A stretch of DNA of 54,256 nucleotides from Clostridiales bacterium (GTDB taxonomy: Bacteria > Bacillota > Clostridia > Christensenellales > Aristaeellaceae): assembly GCA_015056055.1 (NCBI GenBank), contig SVHC01000021.1, forward strand, positions 1 to 54,256. Reading direction: 5' to 3'. Both the position numbers and the translations under genes were made by a program. The notes beneath the pieces were generated by a model. That model searched no databases. It worked only from the letters and a program-made list of their open reading frames with translations, and had not been told where the DNA came from. This document shows positions 1 through 16,295 of this stretch, piece by piece (within the stretch, counting starts at the first letter, position 1; the number at the start of each line of letters is the position of its first letter).

Positions 1-3000
1 GCCGTACTGCACATTCGTCAGGCGATTATCGTTATCGTAGGTATAGTTGGTGGCATAATCCGCCGTGCCAACGCGCTCACGCAGGGTGGAAAGATTGCTG
101 AACTTATCAAAATTCAGATCCGTGCGGTACAGCAGTGCGCCTTCACTATCGCGCAGAGTGCGGCGACAGGGGCGGTTTGCCATATCGTATTCCACCTGTT
201 CGGTGCGCTTGAGGATGTTATCCTCCACCTGCGCAATCTGACCATTTGCACCATATGCATAGGTATAGTTCGGTGCGGCAGCAACATCGGCAGTATCAAT
301 TGCCATTGCCGTTACGCGGTCAAATTCATCGTAGGCGTACTTCACCTTGCCGCCATTGCCGTACTGCACTTCGCTGACCAGATTGGAACGGTCATCCCTG
401 TACACATTGGTGGAAAGGGGCTGCGTGCCTACCAGAACACTGGTCTTGCGACCCATATCATCATAATTAAAGGTATAGGTCACATCACTTGCAGTGGAAG
501 TGGTGTTGTGCGCCACGGTCTTGATGCGGTCATTCTCGTAGGTATAATCATTGCGGTAGGTGCCGCCATTTGCAGATGCAAGAGTTGCAGTTACGCGGTT
601 GGCAGCATCGTAAACATAGTTCACGCTCTGACCCTTTGCATCCGTTACGGAATGCACAATGCCCACGTTATCATTGGGAACGATGGTCACAGCATTGCCG
701 CGTGCGTCCGTCTGCTGGGTAACATAGTTGCCATCCGCATTGTAAGTAACGCCCGTCTGCATTTTGAGGGTGGACGAATCCGCCTGTACCTTCTGCGCGA
801 TCACATTGCCATATTCATCGTGCTCAAACCATTCCTTCACGCCCATGGGAGTGGTGGAGGTTTTCAGCAGATGCTGCTGCTTTTCGGCAGTGGTGGAACC
901 ATAGGTCATGGTGTATTCAATACCCTCATCACGACCAGGCTGACGGTAGGAAATCAGGTTATCGTAGCTGTCGTATTCCATGCCCGATTTCTGGCTTGCA
1001 AGGTTGCCCGTGGCGATCAGGTTTTTGCCATCGTCATAGGCAAAACTCTGACCAAATTCTTCGCGATGCAGGAAGATATTGGCAAACTGAGCGGTGTTGG
1101 CATTCTTGGTATAAACGCACAGCACTTCTATGCGCTGATAATCACCAGGCACACGCAGCGGGAAGCATGCATGCTGCCAGCCAACCCATTCCTCGTTCAT
1201 GGGCAGCATCAGATAATCACTCCAAGTGCCCGAGGTGTTCATATAGCGCACCGCAAAGCCGAATCCACGGTCAGTGGTGGTCGCATTGGGAACGCTCTTG
1301 GCATTTGCCCAGCCGCCGAGGATGTAAACATCGCCAGCCTTACCGCTAACGGCAATCTGCTGCGTCATGCCCACCTGATTCTTATCAGGAATGCCCTGCA
1401 CCTGCAGATATTTGCCAGACAGTGCTGCAGGGAAGCCATTCGAAGCAGAGGGAGTAAATACGCCGTTCATCATATTCGCGGCAGTGTTTGCGCCCATCGT
1501 CCAGCCAGTGGCAAGGGTCTGAGTGCCGCTTGCATAGGTATAGCGGAAGTCACCGTTTGCAATCAGGTTTACGGAGTTGGCTGCTGCGCCTTCTTCCAGC
1601 TGCGGTGCACCAAACCATACCGTGCCGCCAGAACCTGCGTGCACAAGTTCAATATAATAGGAAGCGGAACCAGATCCATCGGGCGTGGTGTATACCAGGT
1701 GCTGACGCTCCCAGCCATCGGTAGGCAGTCCGTTTCCAGTGCTGGTGCCAATGGTGCCAATGATAGCATCGGTTGTAAGGGTATCTGCCGTGATGGATAC
1801 AGGGCGAATGCGCAGGAATGCACCAGTGCCAGTAATGGCAGATGATTTGGTGTAGGCAGAAAGGGAATACGTTTTGCCACATTCCAGGGAAATGGTCTGG
1901 CGGAAAATGCTCTCGCCACCTGCCGCGCCCTTGGTGATATACATGCTGGGCAGATTCAGGCAGGTATTGGAAGCAGACGAACCATGCACATCCGAGAAAG
2001 AACCCGTAACGCGTACCCAGGAGCTATACTGCATCGGGGCAGAAAGCAGGTTCATCACCGTCTTGCGCATACGGGAAGCATCGGAAGGATTGTTCTCAAT
2101 GGCGCTTTCGTACTTAGTAAAGCTTGCAAAGCCCAGTTCATCGCGCACACAAACCACGTTGCCCGAATCATTGAACTGATAGGTCAGCTTCTTGCCTGCA
2201 TTGCTGGTGGTGTTTGCTACTGCCGTGACTTCGGTGCACATATGCAGATAGTTAAACAGCATCTTAGCTCCGCGCTGGGTAACGGTAGCAGTATAGGAGC
2301 TACCCGATGCATGCAGCTGTTCCAGCGAAATCACGCGGCGCATCTGCTCCGTGGCTCCGCCTGCAATCACAGAACTGTCATAGCGGGAGATGGGTTCGTA
2401 TTCAATGTCCACGCGCACGCCATCATAATTGCAGGCACGGGTCATCTGCAGGCTGGGGAACGCGTAAGTATAGGTGGAATGCGACGCTGTACCGCCCAGC
2501 TCACTGTAACGAACACCAGTAAGACAATCGTAAGTATAGGTGAAGTAGACCGTACGCACCGTACCGCTTTCAGCTGCAGGGGTGGTGATGCTGGAAAGCA
2601 GGTTATTGGTGTAATAAAAATTGGTAGTGCGGCCTGCAGGATCAACGATGCTGGCAATCTGACCTTCATAAGAATTGTAGTTGTACAGCACCGTGTTCTC
2701 CATAGAGTCACGCACTGCAGCCAGCCAGGCATTCGTCCAGCCCGAGGTGATGTTGAAGCGCATCTGATTGTTGCCCTTATCGGTAATCACATAGTAAGTG
2801 GAATAGGGCTGCAGCTTCAGGCTCATGCCTTCAGCATCCTCATAAGGCGCAGAACCCACCTTGGGGAAATAGTGTTCGGTGCCATCGCCATCGACCCAGA
2901 TGTAATAATCCGTACCGCTGATGGTCTTTGAATAGATATACTGATGGGCGCTGGTCTTCCAGCCATAACCACAGTAATAGGGATTGGTTGCGGTGAGGCA

Positions 3001-4632
3001 GCTGTTGTAATAGTGGGAAACGGATACAGGCATGCGGTTACCAGTCATCACGGTATCCGTGTGTTCCAGTACCATGTTACCGTTGAAAATATCCGTGTAC
3101 ACCGTACCTGCACGGCCTGCACTCATGGATTCGTACTGCCACCAACTTTCGAGACCTGCATGAGAAACATAGTTTACATACATGGTAGGCTTGTAAGAAG
3201 TGGAAGAAGCATCCGCAGAATACAATTCGGAATAATGATTGCCAGAAACATTATCAGGCTTACGGAAAGCCACGCCATTGTTGCGGCTGATACCAGAATC
3301 ATCGGTCATGCACCAATGCTTGTACATGTTGGTAAGATCGAAGTACAGGTAACCAGAGCTGGCAGCAGGAATACATTCCTGTGCAGCAGTTTCCACATTA
3401 GCTGCAAGATCAGGGTTAAAGTTGAGCCAGTTGACAGAAGAAACATTCCAGGGAGCAAGCACTTCGTGTGCACTGATGTAATTCGTGCTGGCAGAAGACT
3501 GAACACGCAGGCGAAGCTGAGCACTGATCACAGTATCGCTGGTTTTGAGCTGCGCAAGCTGTTTAAATCGCATAAGGCCAACGAAGCGCTGACCCGTGGA
3601 ACCAGTACCGACCTTAATGTAGGATACAGAGTACGGATTGGTGGAAGTATCCTGGCAAAGGGTGGTATCTTCGATGTTCAGGGTGGCATTGGAAGAGATC
3701 ACAACAGGATCAATGGTCACAGGGAAGGTCGCATCCGCCACAAATGCGGTATCCAGAATATATTCCATGCGAATATACTCGCCGCAATCAGTAAGACAGA
3801 TATCTGCAATGGTTTCTTTTCCAGCAGCGTCGTAAACATACGGAGTATCCATTGCAAATGCAAGATTACCAGTTTCCTTATCCTTGATCAGCAGCTGCTT
3901 TTCGGCAGTGACTTCATAATCAAAGGATTTCGGCAGGCGAAGTTTCACATGCTGCAGCGCAGAAGGCTCTGCAAGGATGATATCTTCCTTCACGGTGTTG
4001 CTGCCCAGAGTGTAGCGAACACTGATACCAGGGAGAATGTTCTCATAAGTGTTCTCTGCCTTGAGCTGCGCAATATCACCACGGCGCTCCTGCTCGGTTT
4101 CAATCTCAGCAGAAAGATCCGAATTGCGGAGACTTTCCAGCGTGCGACCAACGAACTTCGGCATGCGCTGTGCCATTTTTACCAGGCGTTCCTGCTTCAT
4201 GGCTGCACCAGTGCGGGGTTTTGCGCGGGTAGGAGTGCATTCTTCCTCAAAGCCCCATGCGAAAGTCTTTCCGCCATCAGCAATGGAGGCAAGATTGTTT
4301 CCATCGGGCTGCTGCGGGAATTCCACACGCATGCGGTTGGCATGATTGCGAAGCACTGCACGACCATGCTCGTTTACGGCTTCTTCCAGGGTGTTATCGA
4401 TATCCTGCCACGCACCATCTTCCGTATCACGGAAGTGAACAGGTTCGGCGAATACGATAACCTGATGGCGATTGAGGCCAACGGTGTAATGCTTGATGAA
4501 TTCCTGACGCATTGCAATATCCTCTTCACCAGGCATGCGTGCGAACAGTTCATCCATGCGACTTGCGTGTTCCATCTGCTGCGGAATACGCGGGAACGAT
4601 TTGTTATCGTTCAGATTCATCTTGTTTTCCAT
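1..4632 (-). CDS. Rhs/YD-repeat protein with DNRLRE domain (3' end outside window)
   Basis: I translated the minus strand and found one open frame of 1544 codons from an ATG at 4632 (AAAGGAA just upstream) to base 1, with no stop, so the C-terminal part lies beyond the window. Residues about 300-480 match a DNRLRE-type beta domain with phrases such as ITIDPVV and RFVGLMRFK. Residues about 535-1000 hold Rhs-like strands (SHYYNS, IVDPAGRTTNFYYTNN). Residues about 910-1170 look like two CBM-type jelly rolls. From about 1200 to the edge, YD repeats recur (NYTYDNDNRLTNVQYG, YAYDEFDRVTAMA). There is no signal peptide. Such proteins form large shells, often around a C-terminal toxin that would be outside this window. 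It starts 54 bp after a truncated NlpC/P60 gene on the same strand. The large plus-strand frames over this stretch are shadows. The family is confident; the role is inferred. Confidence 0.9.
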   Translation of the reverse strand, partial: MENKMNLNDNKSFPRIPQQMEHASRMDELFARMPGEEDIAMRQEFIKHYTVGLNRHQVIVFAEPVHFRDTEDGAWQDIDNTLEEAVNEHGRAVLRNHANRMRVEFPQQPDGNNLASIADGGKTFAWGFEEECTPTRAKPRTGAAMKQERLVKMAQRMPKFVGRTLESLRNSDLSAEIETEQERRGDIAQLKAENTYENILPGISVRYTLGSNTVKEDIILAEPSALQHVKLRLPKSFDYEVTAEKQLLIKDKETGNLAFAMDTPYVYDAAGKETIADICLTDCGEYIRMEYILDTAFVADATFPVTIDPVVISSNATLNIEDTTLCQDTSTNPYSVSYIKVGTGSTGQRFVGLMRFKQLAQLKTSDTVISAQLRLRVQSSASTNYISAHEVLAPWNVSSVNWLNFNPDLAANVETAAQECIPAASSGYLYFDLTNMYKHWCMTDDSGISRNNGVAFRKPDNVSGNHYSELYSADASSTSYKPTMYVNYVSHAGLESWWQYESMSAGRAGTVYTDIFNGNMVLEHTDTVMTGNRMPVSVSHYYNSCLTATNPYYCGYGWKTSAHQYIYSKTISGTDYYIWVDGDGTEHYFPKVGSAPYEDAEGMSLKLQPYSTYYVITDKGNNQMRFNITSGWTNAWLAAVRDSMENTVLYNYNSYEGQIASIVDPAGRTTNFYYTNNLLSSITTPAAESGTVRTVYFTYTYDCLTGVRYSELGGTASHSTYTYAFPSLQMTRACNYDGVRVDIEYEPISRYDSSVIAGGATEQMRRVISLEQLHASGSSYTATVTQRGAKMLFNYLHMCTEVTAVANTTSNAGKKLTYQFNDSGNVVCVRDELGFASFTKYESAIENNPSDASRMRKTVMNLLSAPMQYSSWVRVTGSFSDVHGSSASNTCLNLPSMYITKGAAGGESIFRQTISLECGKTYSLSAYTKSSAITGTGAFLRIRPVSITADTLTTDAIIGTIGTSTGNGLPTDGWERQHLVYTTPDGSGSASYYIELVHAGSGGTVWFGAPQLEEGAAANSVNLIANGDFRYTYASGTQTLATGWTMGANTAANMMNGVFTPSASNGFPAALSGKYLQVQGIPDKNQVGMTQQIAVSGKAGDVYILGGWANAKSVPNATTTDRGFGFAVRYMNTSGTWSDYLMLPMNEEWVGWQHACFPLRVPGDYQRIEVLCVYTKNANTAQFANIFLHREEFGQSFAYDDGKNLIATGNLASQKSGMEYDSYDNLISYRQPGRDEGIEYTMTYGSTTAEKQQHLLKTSTTPMGVKEWFEHDEYGNVIAQKVQADSSTLKMQTGVTYNADGNYVTQQTDARGNAVTIVPNDNVGIVHSVTDAKGQSVNYVYDAANRVTATLASANGGTYRNDYTYENDRIKTVAHNTTSTASDVTYTFNYDDMGRKTSVLVGTQPLSTNVYRDDRSNLVSEVQYGNGGKVKYAYDEFDRVTAMAIDTADVAAAPNYTYAYGANGQIAQVEDNILKRTEQVEYDMANRPCRRTLRDSEGALLYRTDLNFDKFSNLSTLRERVGTADYATNYTYDNDNRLTNVQYG

Positions 4633-9038: not shown

Positions 9039-9500
9039 ATGGATAACCGCTTAATCTCTCATAGCGATACCGCTTCTCATACATTTGGAAGCTTCATGCG
9101 GATGAAAAGGGAAGAAAAAGGGATCTCGCTACGCAGTTTCGCAAAAGAACTTCAAATTACAGCCGCATATTTGAGCGACGTTGAGAATGGTAATCGTCCA
9201 GCCCCCAAGAGTCGCCTAAATACCATATGCGATAAGCTCTGCCTTACCCAAGAAGATCGCGCTACTTTTTTTGATCTGGCTGCACTGACCTGTGGCAACC
9301 ACTACGAGGATATCAACCCTTACCTTACCCAAAATGAAGCAGCTCGAATTGCTCTGCGTAAGGCCAGAGATGCTGGCTTGTCAGATTCTTGGTGGCAAGA
9401 AATTATTTCTCAAATCGATGAAATCACAACAAATCAGATTCTTGGTGGCAAGAAATTATTTCTCAAATCGATGAAATCACAACAAATGAGTAATTTATAG
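9039..9500 (+). CDS. XRE-family transcriptional regulator with a duplicated 3' end
   Basis: Residues 15-65 form a classic XRE helix-turn-helix (FGSFMRMKREEKGISLRSFA, ITAAYLSDVENGNRPAPKSR). The remainder is helical with WWQEIISQIDEITTN. A 53-bp perfect tandem duplication (9382-9434 and 9435-9487) makes the last part odd: the second copy is read in another frame and adds QILGGKKLFLKSMKSQQMSNL. Without the duplication the protein would end TTNE at residue 133 instead of 153. The promoter is a perfect consensus. The gene is convergent with the tns operon, separated by a shared terminator, and may be cargo of the Tn7-like element. Confidence 0.85.
   Translation: MDNRLISHSDTASHTFGSFMRMKREEKGISLRSFAKELQITAAYLSDVENGNRPAPKSRLNTICDKLCLTQEDRATFFDLAALTCGNHYEDINPYLTQNEAARIALRKARDAGLSDSWWQEIISQIDEITTNQILGGKKLFLKSMKSQQMSNL
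9382..9487 (+). repeat. 53-bp perfect tandem duplication
   Basis: Copy one is 9382-9434 and copy two is 9435-9487, identical and adjacent. The unit is not a multiple of three, so it shifts the frame of the XRE gene end and replaces an early stop. Confidence 0.97.
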
Positions 9501-9623: not shown

Positions 9624-11030
9624 TCAATTATTTTCTGTCAGTTCAATTATTTGATTAACTATATCTGCATCCGTATGCTTCATCAGATATGGTATGGTTG
9701 CTTGAAAATTCTTCTTTTTCACACCCGATAATACCCGCACATCCGACCAGTAAAACGGAACACCCTTAGCTTGTAGTTGCCGATATGCCCATATGATTTT
9801 TCTTGCCCAGCTTTCGGGATAGGATTCGGTATGTCTTGCAAATATAGCTTTGCATCGAGGCATATTTTCAAGCTGATGCCCGCGTAAACCCATCTCACGA
9901 TATACGAGTCTTTCTGACACTCGTTCAGGTCTTCCATTTTCGTTAGCTGTACCATCATATATACCACTTACAACCGTTTCTAGTACAGGGGCGGTTTCTG
10001 CATCTAGCGTTTCCCAGTCTACAGGAGCTGCATCTTTCATATAATGGCTATCCATTTCTTTCTGAATCTGTTCCATTTTCAGCGATGGGGACGTCAATTC
10101 TTCAACCGTCAGCCCGAGGAAAAAAGCAATCTGACAGACTACAGAAAAATCAAAGTGGCTACCCAGCAAAACACGCTGGATCTGATGCATACTGGCAATG
10201 CTACATAAATACTGATTGAACTCCAATCTGTTATACTGCAGTCCGAGGGAACGCCTTGCAAGTTGCATAGCTTGTTCAAAAAACATGGTGCTTTCTGGCG
10301 TTCCTACCATACAAATACTGATTCCCGAATTGTTGATAAGCTGGGTAAGCATCCCCACAAGGTTCTTGCCATTTTTACTGTTGGCAACGTTCTGAATTTC
10401 GTCAACTATCAACAGTCCAATATGATTCAGCGCGACCGTACTTACCATACCAATCAGCATATCCACCGTTGATGCTCTGGATTTTATCGCATACTGATAA
10501 TATGTCGTTCCTAATTCTTCATTCGCTTTTCGCAGGATTTCCAGTAAAAGCCCCTTCACAGAGGAATCAAACGGACACTGCACCATCAGGCAGGGAATGA
10601 TTTTGCTGTGTGGCGTTTCAGTTTCTATCAGACGCTTTTCTGTTATCAGGAAAATAGCACGACTGATTGCACTACTCTTGCCTATTCCTGAAGCGCCAAT
10701 AATAGTATAGGAATCACTGCCGCCCATAATGCCGTTGTACGCCTGTTGCTGAATCGCCCTGTTGTTCTCATACCGTTGTTGGATTGCCAGCGTTGTATTT
10801 TTCTTTTGCAGCGAACGCAGAAGGGAAAGATATAGTTTACTGTATATCTCTATGGACATCTGAGAAGGCAGATATATTCTGTACAAATCCGACAATGCCA
10901 TCAGCCGCACAGCTTCATTTTTATTTCTGATACTTTCATCATATTCAGGCAGGATGGTCAGCGCAGACGCAAGTTCATTCCCTGGCAGCATTTTCGGCAT
11001 AGCATTTACAGCTTCCATCAGATTAACCAT
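9624..11030 (-). CDS. tnsC: TnsC-like AAA+ ATPase joined to a TnsD-like C-terminus
   Basis: Residues 1-275 are a TnsC/TniB-type AAA+ ATPase: Walker A GASGIGKSS (Lys118), Walker B LLIVDEIQN (Asp210-Glu211), sensor VGTPES, and the conserved MQLARRSLGLQY that marks Tn7-like TnsC proteins. From about 278 the sequence no longer follows TnsC as I know it. HQIQRVLLGSHFDFSVVCQIA, VDWETLDAETAPVLE, GRPERVSERLVYREMG and WARKIIWAYRQLQAKG look like the C-terminal DNA-binding half of TnsD. The C-terminal TnsC segment and the N-terminal TniQ zinc domain of TnsD are both missing, as if an in-frame deletion fused neighbouring tnsC and tnsD. It overlaps tnsB by 8 bp. The ATPase part is certain; the TnsD match rests on remembered family patterns. 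Confidence 0.85.
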   Translation of the reverse strand: MVNLMEAVNAMPKMLPGNELASALTILPEYDESIRNKNEAVRLMALSDLYRIYLPSQMSIEIYSKLYLSLLRSLQKKNTTLAIQQRYENNRAIQQQAYNGIMGGSDSYTIIGASGIGKSSAISRAIFLITEKRLIETETPHSKIIPCLMVQCPFDSSVKGLLLEILRKANEELGTTYYQYAIKSRASTVDMLIGMVSTVALNHIGLLIVDEIQNVANSKNGKNLVGMLTQLINNSGISICMVGTPESTMFFEQAMQLARRSLGLQYNRLEFNQYLCSIASMHQIQRVLLGSHFDFSVVCQIAFFLGLTVEELTSPSLKMEQIQKEMDSHYMKDAAPVDWETLDAETAPVLETVVSGIYDGTANENGRPERVSERLVYREMGLRGHQLENMPRCKAIFARHTESYPESWARKIIWAYRQLQAKGVPFYWSDVRVLSGVKKKNFQATIPYLMKHTDADIVNQIIELTENN

Positions 11031-12852
11031 TCTTCACACTTCCCATCACAAAATCCTTGTGTGTCTTGCGCTGTTCCTTCTTTCGCGTCTTTCTGACTTG
11101 CTTGATATCCGTATCACCATGCCGAACCGCAGAGCTTGCAATTGCTTCAATATGGTCTGCAAGGTCGATTTTTCCTTGGGTATTTTGGAATCTCACAGCT
11201 CTCTCACGGGTTTTTTGTTCATCTTTGAGTAAATCTACGTCCGAAAGCTTAAAACCGAAAAAACGGCTCTCAGCCAGTGTAAACTCCGTGAATATACCGT
11301 CATTCAACAGCCATACACTGGCAACGTCGTCAGGATTATACGCAACTGTAGCTGTTCCACCGTGTAAATAATGCTCAGTGAAATCCTCATTCTTATAGCG
11401 CAGCTTATTCACAAGTAATCCGTTTCTGTTGAATTTGCCTGTCGTTCGGGTGAAAAGTGTCAGCATCAATTCATCATATCTGACAGTGATAAGATTAGCA
11501 CCTGATTGTGATTTTCCCCAATTCCAGATGTCGCTTGAATGAGGATTTATGTTCTCTGCAAGCATTTCCCGCGTAAATGGGAAATCCTCAATAATGCGCT
11601 GATTGTTGTAGAAAAGGATGCAATGCAGAACAATTTTCTCAAAGTCCGCCATCGTTAGACAAGCATCACGCCGATAATCATGCACACCCCGTTCTTGAAA
11701 ATCAGGTTCTATCACGCCTTTGCCCTTCAGGTGTTTTTTATAGCACCCCTGAATCAGGTCAAAAAACTTCTCGACCACACCCTTTAGTTCTGGGCGATAT
11801 GCAGGGAGATTTATGATCGTCACACCCAACTCTGCCAGCTGTTCTATGTTGGAAGACTTATACTCAGTACCCATATCAGTTACAAGAGTCGCAGGCAACT
11901 GATTGCAGTCCCACTCTTCTCTCTGAATGCTGATGCCGAATTGCTTACACCATTCAACCTTGTCTGCAATCATATTGACCAGCAGATTTTTCAGGCTGTA
12001 CACGCCGCCTTCCCATGACAACGAATAGCCACAACACAAACCGCTATAAGCATCTACGCAGGCGGTCAGTATTGGTCTTCCTACCAGATTACCAGCATCA
12101 TCAACTAAATAAATATCGCAAATAGTAGAATCCAGCATACCCGTTCCGATCACAGGCGCAAACTGCTGCACACCATCTCCTAGCAAAGGTCTGTGATTAC
12201 GCTGATATTTCTTCAATCCTTCTCGCGAGATGTAATAAGTCTGCATCTTCCTGTGTTTCATGTAAAAATACTTAAATTGGTGCATAGAGGGATATTCAGG
12301 CAACAACCGTCCCGAAGAATCGCAGTATTTCTCTTTCAGCATCATGGTGTAAGCAGTGCTCAGGCTGTTCTTATGTCGTGTGTAGAAATACTTATTGAGT
12401 GCCCAGCGCATGTTTTTCTCATCCCGAGTCAGCTTTCTCTCCTGTTTTTTCGGCTTGGGAGCCAGTGCCGCAATGTCTTGATAAACAAGATACAACCAGA
12501 GATAATTTCTGATCGTCTGTTTGCTTACTGCCTTCTCTGCTGCAATACTGGTAATCATGGCACAGCGTTTCTTTTCATCACCGATAAAAGGCAAAACACC
12601 TGCAATTAGCCTGAAATGCTCATGTACGAAGCGTCTGCTTTCTTTATCCAATAAATCATACTCACAGATATTCTTGCCAGTAGCAGTCAGCATTTCTTCT
12701 TCGGTACATTCTACATAATCTGCAACCTCAGATTGTGATACCCACTTTGGCATGAATTTTCTTGTGCAGCCAACAATCAGCACAGAATCTTCCCTGACCT
12801 CCAGAATTCTAATGATATTGTCCCCACACTTCAAAAGCTCATTTTTCTGCAT
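11023..12852 (-). CDS. tnsB: TnsB-like DDE transposase
   Basis: The 609-aa protein is a Mu/TnsB-type rve transposase that cuts the 3' ends of the element and joins them to target DNA. The triad is visible as Asp241 (GMLDSTICD), Asp326 (LVTDMGTEY) and Glu361 (RPELKGVVEKFF), giving a DD35E spacing. N-terminal residues about 85-130 form HTH-like segments for end binding. The C-terminal third has the Mu-C beta barrel and a basic tail (QVRKTRKKEQRKTHKD) that in TnsB contacts TnsC. It overlaps tnsA by 14 bp and the tnsC-like gene by 8 bp, so the three are one operon. Confidence 0.92.
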   Translation of the reverse strand: MQKNELLKCGDNIIRILEVREDSVLIVGCTRKFMPKWVSQSEVADYVECTEEEMLTATGKNICEYDLLDKESRRFVHEHFRLIAGVLPFIGDEKKRCAMITSIAAEKAVSKQTIRNYLWLYLVYQDIAALAPKPKKQERKLTRDEKNMRWALNKYFYTRHKNSLSTAYTMMLKEKYCDSSGRLLPEYPSMHQFKYFYMKHRKMQTYYISREGLKKYQRNHRPLLGDGVQQFAPVIGTGMLDSTICDIYLVDDAGNLVGRPILTACVDAYSGLCCGYSLSWEGGVYSLKNLLVNMIADKVEWCKQFGISIQREEWDCNQLPATLVTDMGTEYKSSNIEQLAELGVTIINLPAYRPELKGVVEKFFDLIQGCYKKHLKGKGVIEPDFQERGVHDYRRDACLTMADFEKIVLHCILFYNNQRIIEDFPFTREMLAENINPHSSDIWNWGKSQSGANLITVRYDELMLTLFTRTTGKFNRNGLLVNKLRYKNEDFTEHYLHGGTATVAYNPDDVASVWLLNDGIFTEFTLAESRFFGFKLSDVDLLKDEQKTRERAVRFQNTQGKIDLADHIEAIASSAVRHGDTDIKQVRKTRKKEQRKTHKDFVMGSVKNG

Positions 12853-13216
12853 TGATCACAAGCCCCCAATCCGTCACACCATGCCTGAGCCAATACTCTC
12901 TTGAAGCATCCAGCAGTTTGATCGTCATCGGTTTCGTAAGCAATTTTCTCTGCACACACTCCCTGATCATCATGTCGCCATCGGACTTGATACACAGGAA
13001 ATCAGATGTATATTCCCCTTCTTCCAGCCCATCCAGAGGCACATTACACCTGATTTCCCTGATGCTGTCATCCGCTTGGAGCATATCGGCATAAACAGAT
13101 TGAATCGGATCGTATGAACGAAATACACCCTCACACTTACTGATTACCCGTTTTTCGCATCTGCCCTTGTACCCTTTCTTCCTCACAGAAAAACCTTCTT
13201 TCTGGCTCCAGCACAT
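12839..13216 (-). CDS. tnsA: TnsA-like transposon endonuclease
   Basis: This 125-aa protein carries the TnsA endonuclease core: EYTSDFLCI (Asp72), then RECVQRKLL (Gln89, Lys91), then DASREYWLRHGVTDWGLVI. TnsA cuts the 5' ends of the element, which makes transposition cut-and-paste rather than replicative. The N-terminal RKKGYKGR stretch is typical. The first acidic residue of the Tn7 TnsA site is not obvious, since the expected helix reads DPIQSVYADML. The start was set at ATG 13216, 11 bases after GGAGG; an inner GTG at residue 11 is possible. First gene of the tnsABC operon. Confidence 0.8.
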   Translation of the reverse strand: MCWSQKEGFSVRKKGYKGRCEKRVISKCEGVFRSYDPIQSVYADMLQADDSIREIRCNVPLDGLEEGEYTSDFLCIKSDGDMMIRECVQRKLLTKPMTIKLLDASREYWLRHGVTDWGLVINAEK

Positions 13217-13411
13217 CCACCAAAAAGCCTCCCAAAAATCCCCCAGAAATAGATTTTTTTCCCAAATCCATTTATTTTTGGGAAAGCAGTAAAATCATCC
13301 AATGAAACTCCATCTTTGGACTAATTTTTCCTAATTTCCTTCCCAAAAACATGTTTTCGAAAATACTCTATGTAGTGGTGCAAAGGCTGTTATCGTGTTT
13401 GCGTCTATTTT

Positions 13412-13483
13412 CCCGATTTTTCATTATCCTCCACCCACTCCAAACAACCCGATTTTCAGGTCTTTTTCGCTTCCACTCCACCA
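13412..13483. repeat. candidate TnsB-binding direct repeats
   Basis: CCCGATTTTTCA (13412) followed by a TCCACCCACTCC block, then CCCGATTTTCA (13448) followed by a TCCACTCCACCAC block, give two units about 36 bp apart in the same orientation. Repeated sites near the tnsA end are expected for TnsB binding. The assignment is inferred. Confidence 0.4.
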
Positions 13484-13486
13484 CTT

Positions 13487-13520
13487 AAAATTGGAATTTT
13501 ATGTGCTAAAAGCCGCTTTT
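13487..13520. promoter_or_regulatory. paired short palindromes near the element end
   Basis: AAAATTGGAATTTT (13487-13500) and AAAAGCCGCTTTT (13508-13520) are two neighbouring inverted repeats with six-base arms. They may be part of the transposon end or an operator for tnsABC; nothing further can be said. Confidence 0.35.
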
Positions 13521-13544
13521 TATCAAGTTTTTTCTCTATATTGG

Positions 13545-13582
13545 TAAAAAAAGACCCTGAAGGACGAATCCTTCAAGGTCTT
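13545..13582 (-). terminator. ppdK terminator
   Basis: On the minus strand AAGACCTTGAAGGA, a four-base loop and TCCTTCAGGGTCTT form a long stem followed by seven T, 74 bases after the ppdK stop codon. Confidence 0.92.
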
Positions 13583-13655
13583 ATCTTTTAATTGGTCAGG
13601 CGATAACCATTCTCATGGGTGATGAGGATAATGATTAGTGCACTGCGACAATTTC

Positions 13656-16295
13656 TTACTTGCCCTTCTTCTCGTTGATTGCGGCGTGAGCAGCAGCCAG
13701 ACGAGCGATCGGTACGCGATAGGGAGAGCAGGAAACGTAGTTCAGGCCAACCTTGTGGCAGAACTCAACGGAGGACGGATCGCCGCCGTGCTCGCCGCAG
13801 ATACCGATCTTGAGATCGGGGCGGGTCTGACGACCCAGGGTGGTAGCCATCTTGATCAGGCTGCCAACGCCGTTCTGGTCGATACGGGCGAAGGGATCGC
13901 TCTCCATGATCTTCTGATCATAGTAGTGGGTGAGGAACTTGCCGGCGTCGTCACGGGAGAAGCCGTAAGTCATCTGGGTCAGGTCGTTGGTGCCGAAGGA
14001 GAAGAACTCGGCCTTTTCGGCGATCTCGTCAGCAGTCAGAGCTGCACGCGGGATCTCGATCATGGTGCCGACCTTGTACTCGATCATGGCAGCCTTTTCG
14101 GACATAACCTTCTCAGCGGTCTTAACAACAACATCGCGAACGAAAGCCAGTTCCTTGACATTGCCTACCAGCGGAATCATGATTTCCGGATGAATGTTGT
14201 AGCCCTTCTCGGCGCGAACTTCGATAGCGGCCTCGATAACGGCGCGTGTCTGCATCTCGGCGATTTCCGGATAGGTGACAGACAGACGGCAGCCGCGATG
14301 ACCGAGCATCGGGTTGGACTCGTGCAGAGACTCGATCTTCTGGATAACGGCCTCAACAGTTACGCCCAGTTCGTTAGCGATAGCGGTGATTTCCTCAACA
14401 TCGGAAACCTGGGGCAGGAACTCGTGGAGCGGCGGATCCAGGTAACGGATGGTTACCGGGCGCTCTTCCATAGCCTCGTAGATGCCCTTGAAGTCGCCGC
14501 GCTGCATCGGCAGCAGCTTGTTGAGCGCTGCACGGCGCTGCTCTTCGGTATCGGCAAGAATCATCTCGCGAACCGCGGTGATACGGTCGGAGCTGAAGAA
14601 CATGTGCTCGGTACGGGTCAGACCGATACCTTCTGCACCGAAGCGAACTGCGGCAGCAGCATCGTCGGGAGTGTCGGCATTGGTACGAACCTGCAGACGG
14701 CGGGCGGCGTCGGCCCAGCCCATCAGACGTGCGAAGTCGCCGGTCATGTCGGCGGCAACGGTGTCGATAGCTTCGCCGTAAACCTTACCGGTGGAACCGT
14801 CGAGGGACATATAGTCGCCTTCAACGAAGGTGCGATCGCCGATGCGCAGAGTCTTTGCCTCTTCGTCAACGATCAGAGCGCTGCAGCCTGCTACGCAGCA
14901 GGTACCCATACCGCGGGCAACAACAGCAGCGTGGGAGGTCATACCGCCGCGGCAGGTCAGAATGCCCTGTGCGTGGTTCATGCCCTCGATGTCTTCCGGA
15001 GAGGTCTCCAGACGGACAAGCAGTACCTTCTGGCCGCTCTTGGCAGCAGCGGTAGCTTCAGCAGCAGTGAAGTAGATACGGCCGCAGGCAGCACCCGGGG
15101 ATGCCGGCAGACCGGTAGCAATAGCGGTGGCAGCCTTCAGAGCCTTGGCGTCGAACTGCGGATGCAACAGAGCGTCCAGCTGCTTGGGCTCAACCTTGAG
15201 GATAGCATCATCGGTGGAGATCATGCCCTCGTCAACGAGGTCAACAGCGATCTTCAGTGCAGCAGCGGCAGTACGCTTACCATTGCGGGTCTGCAGCATG
15301 TACAGCTTGCCGCGCTCGATGGTGTACTCCATGTCCTGCATGTCGCGATAGTGCTTTTCAAGGGTATCGGCGATGGTGACGAACTGATCGTAAACTTCCG
15401 GCATAACGGCCTGGAGAGTATCGATCTGCTGCGGGGTACGGATACCGGCAACAACGTCTTCGCCCTGTGCATTGATGAGGTATTCGCCGTAGAGCTTCTT
15501 CTCACCGGTGGCGGGGTTGCGGGTGAAGGCAACGCCGGTACCGGAGGTGTCACCCATGTTACCGAATACCATGGACTGTACGTTAACGGCAGTGCCCCAG
15601 TCGCCGGGGATGTCGTTCATGCGGCGGTAGTAGATGGCGCGCGGGTTGTCCCAGGAACGGAAAACAGCCTTGATAGCCTCAAGCAGCTGAACCTTGGGAT
15701 CCTGCGGGAACTCTTCGCCCTTGTTGGCGAGGTAGAGTTCCTTGAAGCGGCGAACGACTTCCTTCATATCCTCGGCATCGAGGTCGGTGTCGAACTTGGC
15801 GCCCTTGGCTTCCTTGATTTCGTCCAGTACGGCTTCGAACTTACGCTTCTCGATCTCCATAACAACGTCGGAGAACATCTGGATGAAGCGGCGGTAGGAG
15901 TCATATGCAAAACGCTCGTTGTTGGTCAGGTTGGCCAGACCCTTAACGGCGGTATCATTCAGACCAAGATTGAGGATGGTGTCCATCATACCGGGCATGG
16001 AAACGCGTGCACCGGAACGAACGGATACGAGGAACGGATTTTCCAGATCGCCGAACTTCTTCTGGCAGATCTCTTCCGTCTTGGCAAGAGCCTCGTCGAT
16101 CTGGGCGAGGATTTCTTCGGGAATCTGCTTATTGTTGTTGTAGTAAGCAGTGCAGGCTTCGGTGGAAACGGTGAAGCCCTGCGGTACCGGCAGACCCAGG
16201 TTGGTCATTTCAGCAAGGTTTGCGCCCTTACCGCCGAGCAGATTCTTCATATCCGCGCGGCCTTCCCGGAACAGATATACATACTTATGAGCCAT
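13656..16295 (-). CDS. ppdK: pyruvate, phosphate dikinase
   Basis: The 879-aa enzyme interconverts pyruvate, ATP and phosphate with phosphoenolpyruvate, AMP and pyrophosphate, a central glycolytic/gluconeogenic step in many Clostridia. The N-terminal ATP-grasp domain starts with GGKGANLAEMTNLGLPVP. The phosphohistidine domain has GGMTSHAAVVARGMG, with the catalytic His at residue 455, as in the Clostridium symbiosum enzyme. The C-terminal PEP/pyruvate barrel ends with GICGEHGGD (Cys833) and VSCSPYRVPIARLAAA. GCAGGAGGG precedes the ATG. It is a single-gene unit with its own promoter and terminator, and its 3' end faces the transposon. The 901-codon plus-strand frame over it is a shadow. Confidence 0.98.
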   Translation of the reverse strand: MAHKYVYLFREGRADMKNLLGGKGANLAEMTNLGLPVPQGFTVSTEACTAYYNNNKQIPEEILAQIDEALAKTEEICQKKFGDLENPFLVSVRSGARVSMPGMMDTILNLGLNDTAVKGLANLTNNERFAYDSYRRFIQMFSDVVMEIEKRKFEAVLDEIKEAKGAKFDTDLDAEDMKEVVRRFKELYLANKGEEFPQDPKVQLLEAIKAVFRSWDNPRAIYYRRMNDIPGDWGTAVNVQSMVFGNMGDTSGTGVAFTRNPATGEKKLYGEYLINAQGEDVVAGIRTPQQIDTLQAVMPEVYDQFVTIADTLEKHYRDMQDMEYTIERGKLYMLQTRNGKRTAAAALKIAVDLVDEGMISTDDAILKVEPKQLDALLHPQFDAKALKAATAIATGLPASPGAACGRIYFTAAEATAAAKSGQKVLLVRLETSPEDIEGMNHAQGILTCRGGMTSHAAVVARGMGTCCVAGCSALIVDEEAKTLRIGDRTFVEGDYMSLDGSTGKVYGEAIDTVAADMTGDFARLMGWADAARRLQVRTNADTPDDAAAAVRFGAEGIGLTRTEHMFFSSDRITAVREMILADTEEQRRAALNKLLPMQRGDFKGIYEAMEERPVTIRYLDPPLHEFLPQVSDVEEITAIANELGVTVEAVIQKIESLHESNPMLGHRGCRLSVTYPEIAEMQTRAVIEAAIEVRAEKGYNIHPEIMIPLVGNVKELAFVRDVVVKTAEKVMSEKAAMIEYKVGTMIEIPRAALTADEIAEKAEFFSFGTNDLTQMTYGFSRDDAGKFLTHYYDQKIMESDPFARIDQNGVGSLIKMATTLGRQTRPDLKIGICGEHGGDPSSVEFCHKVGLNYVSCSPYRVPIARLAAAHAAINEKKGK

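Follow-up and report, generated by a model that had tools for sequence, protein, structure and literature searches.

According to the passages of PMC2918618 that deal with protein contacts in Tn7, the interaction between TnsC and TnsD is placed in TnsC residues 1-293 and TnsD residues 1-309, removal of the 7 N-terminal residues of TnsD abolishes TnsC binding, and the 50 C-terminal residues of TnsC are the part bound by TnsA. The same passages report that DNA binding by TnsD requires its zinc site as well as its C-terminal part: a change of the zinc-site residue C124 leaves 0.05 of the attTn7 binding, and the C-terminal deletions tested showed no DNA binding. In their two-hybrid data, TnsC 1-293 and TnsC 1-332 score 0.20 with TnsD, vs. 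1.0 at full length and 0.075 for the empty vectors; at odds with this tabulated 0.20, the text has the 223-residue deletion (TnsC 1-332) losing the TnsD interaction. Dominant-negative TnsD mutants were readily found, the truncated ones being nonsense mutants that retain the N-terminus (PMC2918618). As for the wider group, a TnsC survey reports TniQ/TnsD to be ubiquitous across its Tn7 branch (PMC10293859). The sections of that survey drawn on here name TnsAB and TniQ-TnsF fusions, which likewise join parts of the Tn7-like machinery, but with partners other than those of the gene described below; no TnsC-TnsD fusion is named in them, and its absence from print is not claimed.

Organisation of the operon

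The window (the whole stretch of 54,256 nucleotides that was analysed, contig SVHC01000021.1 of assembly GCA_015056055.1) carries on its minus strand an operon running away from ppdK, in which a tnsA-like gene, tnsB and a fused gene follow one another with consecutive overlaps. Its features are listed below, with identities to L006 (tnsB-C-D of the MAG Eubacteriales S22M_St_66, JAUNDE010000062.1), the nearest relative found for both halves of the fused gene, or to other related loci.

9624..11030, minus strand: fused gene, an uninterrupted frame of 468 codons by ORF reading
9624..10208, minus strand: tnsD-derived part, residues 275-468 and stop; about 83% identity to L006 TnsD 254-443; weak PF15978 match
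10206..10208, minus strand: junction codon 275 (TTA); TT common to both parents in the codon comparison with L006
10209..11030, minus strand: tnsC-derived part, residues 1-274; about 90% identity to L006 TnsC 1-275; TniB PF05621 and AAA_22
11023..12852, minus strand: tnsB, 609 aa, intact frame; Mu-transpos_C PF09299; 55% identity to L033 TnsB over 608 aa
12839..13216, minus strand: tnsA-like gene; weak PF08722 match; 44-69% identity to ten related TnsA
13626..13650, minus strand: probable right end of the transposon, TGTCGCAGTGCAC..., at a distance of 5 bp from the stop codon of ppdK
13656..16295, minus strand: ppdK (pyruvate phosphate dikinase); PPDK_N and PEP-utilizers_C

The first-pass annotation had read an intact 468-codon frame with the operon overlaps kept, and both are retained (14 bp for tnsA/tnsB, 8 bp for tnsB/fused gene). 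By sequence comparison, the first 274 residues of its product come from TnsC and the following 194, read in the same frame, from the C-terminal part of TnsD. The tnsC-derived part covers the N-terminal region, both Walker motifs (A and B) and the stretch past the ARRS motif, and the tnsD-derived part is without the TniQ domain.

Of the two Pfam families proposed at first for the two halves, TniB was recovered on the first (PF05621, fused-protein residues 107-260, E 1.6e-13, an AAA+ core with Walker A and B present), but TnsD on the second remained below threshold (PF15978, residues 335-396, E 0.0019, 17.7 bits vs. a cut-off of 32.4), the match covering profile positions 295-354 of 355. A weak PF15978 match is usual in this element family: the separate TnsDs score no better than E 0.00019 in L006 and E 0.00089 in L033, and in L088, L090 and L101 no match is seen at E 0.01. 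The second half was not settled by Pfam and NCBIfam alone, and the comparison with L006 was decisive: the second half, taken for TnsD at first from residue 278 on, is 83% identical to L006 TnsD over residues 275-464. Its reading as a normal TnsC tail was rejected, the tails of five TnsCs (L006, L033, L031, L034 and L035) being a different sequence.

Concerning the other two genes, the Mu-type C-terminal domain of TnsB scores 22.8 bits with PF09299 vs. a cut-off of 21.7. The PF08722 match of the tnsA-like protein (E 0.0022) is under the cut-off and no TnsA match was found for it among PDB sequences; the gene is common to ten relatives, and its more likely start is the GTG at 13186, in register with the start of most of them. 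The family alignment of TnsA shows EC[VI] in place of E/Q-x-K, and at the first of the catalytic positions a conserved Glu is missing. This motif and the catalytic Glu and Lys positions, which we take to be those of Tn7 TnsA, are seemingly not conserved in the family, whose TnsA may be inactive or use another site.

Parent genes and junction

L006 was the one relative returned by a scan of one genome per species (84,980 species) with six short exact peptide seeds. Its tnsC and tnsD are separate, complete genes (TnsC of 416 aa from position 842, TnsD of 449 aa from 2089) that overlap by four bases, and its TnsD has a full TniQ domain (PF06527, residues 5-157, E 5e-20). Residues 1-275 of the fused protein are 89.8% identical to L006 TnsC 1-275, and residues 275-464 are 82.6% identical to L006 TnsD 254-443, without a gap on the window side across the join. 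Since this relative carries separate tnsC and tnsD genes, each matching one half, the fusion is proven, and the TnsC-TnsD chimera of the first-pass annotation is borne out. The two loci are alike in their gene order tnsB-C-D and in an 8-bp tnsB/tnsC overlap; they are unlike in that L006 keeps the C-terminal region of TnsC and the TniQ domain in its two separate genes. The L006 contig begins inside tnsB, its tnsA lying beyond the contig, so that none is visible.

Codon 275 is TTA in the window, TTC in L006 tnsC and TTG in L006 tnsD. The junction, initially put at about residue 278, was correct to within a few residues, but the codon comparison places it at 275. Relative to L006, about 1,184 bp are absent from the window, which correspond to TnsC 276-416 and TnsD 1-253; the absence of the TnsC C-terminus and of the TniQ zinc domain, stated from the outset, is thereby given its limits.

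Lost parts and search for another target selector

A complete TnsC is not present, the residues past about 274 of its relatives missing from the window protein, nor is the N-terminal TniQ domain with its CCCH zinc site. In the lost TnsC 276-416, 53 of the 141 positions are invariant among five TnsCs, with a nearly solid block at 301-327. By an alignment counted by hand, the fused TnsC part stops opposite about residue 308 of Tn7 TnsC, which, by the usual build of AAA+ proteins, would be the boundary between the AAA+ core and the lid. The core itself is common to Tn7 TnsC (7mbw, 8glu) and the window, L006 TnsC 105-354 aligning with Tn7 TnsC 129-388. For TnsD, it is L006 residues 5-210 that align with Tn7 TnsD 4-210 (8glu chain X), a stretch absent from the window protein.

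A TniQ profile search, which first gave 0 matches among 14 control genomes, was repeated with four genomes carrying TniQ elements as a positive comparison. One match above the cut-off was found in each of these four vs. 0 in the window's own genome, listed as 95% complete. Queried with L006 TnsD, the same 95% complete genome held no second tnsD beyond the fused gene, and the earlier statement that the window has no other tniQ or tnsD can be extended to the genome at this completeness. With PF15978 at E up to 1, four places were matched, among them the fused gene (E 7.4e-4); the three others (E 0.02-0.75), all under the cut-off, were set aside as chance, 12 of the 14 controls having matches at such a level.

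State of related copies

A relative of tnsA was found in 16 of 309 family genomes, one of which (G285) is distant. Besides the window's own, these genomes are fifteen in number, and the complete set of four genes, each with an open frame, is seen in only one of them (G172, locus L033). Four have other internal deletions (G039, G108, G201 and G019). In G120, tnsC and tnsD are whole and tnsB is broken, with a fragment of tnsA at another place. The tnsD end is missing in G216, the tnsC end in G228 and most of tnsC in G096; G222 has one copy cut by the contig end and a tnsA fragment in a second place, four genomes (G231, G086, G100 and G269) have fragments or frameshifts, and G285 has a partial match only.

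Separate full-length open tnsC and tnsD occur in seven further loci (L033, L034, L087, L088, L089, L090 and L101). Twelve distinct contigs labelled as viral match tnsA or tnsC: four have all four genes without stops (L088, L089, L090 and L101), L087 has tnsB-C-D with its start cut, four are cut by the contig end (L091, L097, L098 and L100) and three break off within the operon (L094, L095 and L096). Two copies from outside the family are also affected: tnsD is shortened in L035, and the tnsC frame of L039 is interrupted by a stop. Complete copies of the element therefore exist, and within the window's bacterial family damaged ones predominate.

Among the internal deletions, L036 has two (TnsB 59 to TnsC 71, and TnsC 145 to TnsD 137), L037 one from TnsB 75 to TnsC 213 and L062 one within TnsB. 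At L036 (6362-9015, minus strand, at the 3' end of guaA), tnsA is followed by a frame resembling a serine recombinase (by eye), then by TnsB 1-59 fused to TnsC 71-145 and a TnsD without start. At L038 (7099-7773), approximately TnsB 1-133 and the last 85 or so residues of TnsD form an in-frame product of 225 aa, directly after an open tnsA. Four of the six internal junctions of the family are in frame (window, L036 B-C, L038 and L062, as opposed to L036 C-D and L037) vs. one third expected, a mild excess (P 0.10) that was not accepted as a sign of selection. L094, in which TnsB runs into cargo, and L031, L032, L060, L095 and L096, truncated into unrelated sequence, were omitted from this count.

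Search for the junction in other genomes

The fused protein as query gave matches in 15 of 301 family genomes (E 0.001), 6 of 396 genomes of the order sample (E 1e-8) and 20 of 391 genomes of the class sample (E 1e-15), samples that overlap and that each include the window's own genome. Among the genomes listed, a match spanning the junction was found in this genome only. In the others, the TnsC match stops between residues 40 and 299, and any match to the TnsD end is a stretch of its own, with frame lengths of 125-532 aa. A degenerate junction pattern, run against 105 loci, matched two stretches of the own genome and no others. As for plasmids, 358 records were matched; among the 20 matches listed, 19 stop before the junction, and the remaining one is weak (25% over 134-353). 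The phages searched with the fused protein gave no match. In the viral contigs, short exact peptide patterns returned no relative of the fused protein, a near-literal junction pattern had no exact match and no relative of the L038 fusion was found, while the TnsD-end profile retrieved only two contigs, both known beforehand.

Young deletion or selected protein

Compared with L006, both halves of the fused gene give a dN/dS of 0.08 and the TnsB part one of 0.13, values that mostly cover time before the deletion. The dS to L006 is unequal among the parts (0.72, 1.16 and 1.31), given which the pieces of the operon may not have one common history. Amino-acid changes polarised with L087, L088 and other outgroups number, for both halves, 21 on the window lineage and 16 on the L006 lineage, with 28 assignable to neither; the corresponding figures are 10, 6 and 12 for the TnsC part, 11, 10 and 16 for the TnsD part, and 33, 27 and 20 for the TnsB part. 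More distant outgroups (window/L006: TnsC 10/6, TnsB 35/25, TnsD 7/11) gave no clear excess either. A wholly neutral window branch would give about 484 nonsynonymous changes in the two halves. Since free drift fits at most about a tenth of this branch (scaled by hand), the deletion is young or the protein still constrained. Recency and selection are equally compatible with the open frame and one copy does not separate them, which leaves the original wording, 'recent origin or selection', standing as it was.

Origin and fate of the fused gene

The explanation that we favour, at a probability of roughly 0.8, is that a recent internal deletion removed target selection and left a crippled Tn7-like relic, not a new mode of targeting. 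An in-frame deletion between adjacent tnsC and tnsD was one of the two origins first put forward, and it is supported because L006 keeps both genes and related copies show other internal deletions. The ancestor would have been a Tn7-like tnsA-B-C-D operon at the 3' end of ppdK, in which the loss of about 1,184 bp across the tnsC/tnsD border, the ends probably being joined at the 2-bp match, would have kept the frame by chance and brought the TnsC AAA+ core and the C-terminal TnsD part into one gene. Its product would form no working TnsC assembly, the lid being gone, would be out of reach of TnsA, the TnsC tail being gone, and would not bind the target through a TniQ zinc domain; by analogy with Tn7, with TniQ domain and TnsC tail missing, it should neither bind the target as TnsD does nor signal to TnsA. 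The element would be unable to pick a target and be stuck unless supplied in trans, and the open frame would mirror the youth of the deletion. Against this reading were counted the three clean operon frames without clear amino-acid excess, as in a selected gene, the four of six junctions in frame, the unequal dS, the lack of a visible tnsA in L006, and the position of the break, which lies roughly where the AAA+ core ends and a fused protein might fold. As a relic, the locus shows loss of mobility in a Tn7-like element, the operon being broken inside while its outer parts remain.

Internally deleted repressor copies occur in other transposons. That the fused protein is similarly kept as an interferer, poisoning the TnsC-TnsD complexes of an incoming element and guarding the occupied site, is in our view unlikely. 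Frame and sequence are kept, the protein, broken opposite about residue 308, would by analogy retain the TnsC region that touches TnsD in Tn7 as well as the TnsD end, and three other loci (L036, L038 and L062) have in-frame fusions; these, however, join different parts, with no common domain set. From the passages of PMC2918618 cited above, the score of 0.20 for TnsC 1-293 and 1-332 and the commonness of dominant-negative TnsD mutants can be invoked. However, 0.20 is weak ground where the text has TnsC 1-332 losing the interaction, TnsD fragments that had lost the N-terminus failed to bind TnsC, and those dominant-negative TnsDs that are truncated keep this N-terminus (PMC2918618), which the window protein lacks. 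Moreover, no second genome with the window's fusion was found in the samples searched, nor any relative of the L038 fusion in the viral contigs. The broader proposal that in-frame collapse of tnsB-C-D is recurrent (window, L036, L038 and L062), some products being kept as site occupiers or as poisons of TnsC-TnsD complexes that make the host cell or the resident element immune to intact relatives, is held to be just as doubtful. Should the fused protein have any function, nature would have supplied a test of the minimal TnsC plus TnsD for target reading or, alternatively, an inhibitor of Tn7-like transposition.

An error in the assembly is very improbable: the genome is a draft of 80 contigs, but the two parts meet cleanly and without a frame shift, a further copy of tnsC or tnsD that might have been mis-joined was not found in the genome, and the nearest relative is the same for both halves.

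The least probable reading, and the other of the two first put forward, is a compact working element whose fused ATPase reads its own target and activates TnsAB without TniQ, for which it speaks that none of the three frames (TnsA, TnsB and fused gene) is interrupted, the TniB/AAA core is matched and the C-terminal TnsD part is 74-80% identical to L006, L087 and L088; but TnsC 276-416 and the TniQ domain are missing, the parts mapped in the cited passages of PMC2918618 to TnsC-TnsD contact, zinc-dependent DNA binding and TnsA binding are gone, zinc site and TnsD C-terminal part are both needed there for Tn7 DNA binding, TniQ/TnsD is ubiquitous in the Tn7 branch as surveyed in PMC10293859, the samples searched yielded no further instance of the junction and no positive evidence emerged, so that self-targeting is unlikely.

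Ends, target site and neighbouring sequences

The stretch 13626-13650 is probably the right transposon end, and the neighbouring end sequence recurs elsewhere in the own genome (G000:C4). The 3' end of ppdK is the probable target of the insertion. Judged by eye from the flanking DNA, other copies lie at other 3' ends, namely guaA for L036 and L035 (supported by domain search for L036); for L039, the final codons point to a gene for a ribosomal protein. The window element and its relatives match in this the habit of Tn7, which inserts behind conserved genes.

Within 13216-13660, ACATAGAGTATTTT / GACATAGTACTTTT lie upstream of tnsA and are common to many copies, and ATTATCCTC / GAGGATAAT are oriented toward each other within the right end; the right-end consensus also recovered the site at 13377. 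Neither repeats nor this consensus gave a convincing left end in the window, whose contig ends at base 1, and hits at 946, 24434 and 30576 (3 mismatches) were rejected, 0.8 being found per shuffled window.

The second right-end-like stretch of the own genome (L080, 7384-7500 at G000:C4) has 75% identity over 119 alignment columns. Past it lie a type I restriction-modification methylase gene and, by eye, specificity-like and restriction-like frames. The 16 kb at G000:C4 gave no match to tns genes, and the stretch is possibly a cargo island moved in trans.

Downstream of the fused gene, an HTH gene (9039-9500) lies on the opposite strand, followed by other genes, including an ArdC-like anti-restriction gene. 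At 1-4632, a repeat-rich protein of at least 1,544 aa, named RHS/YD-like by eye and without a match among PHROGs families, runs off the contig end. Finally, a perfect 53-bp tandem duplication (9381-9486) inside the HTH gene alters its C-terminal end, and is probably recent since its copies are identical.
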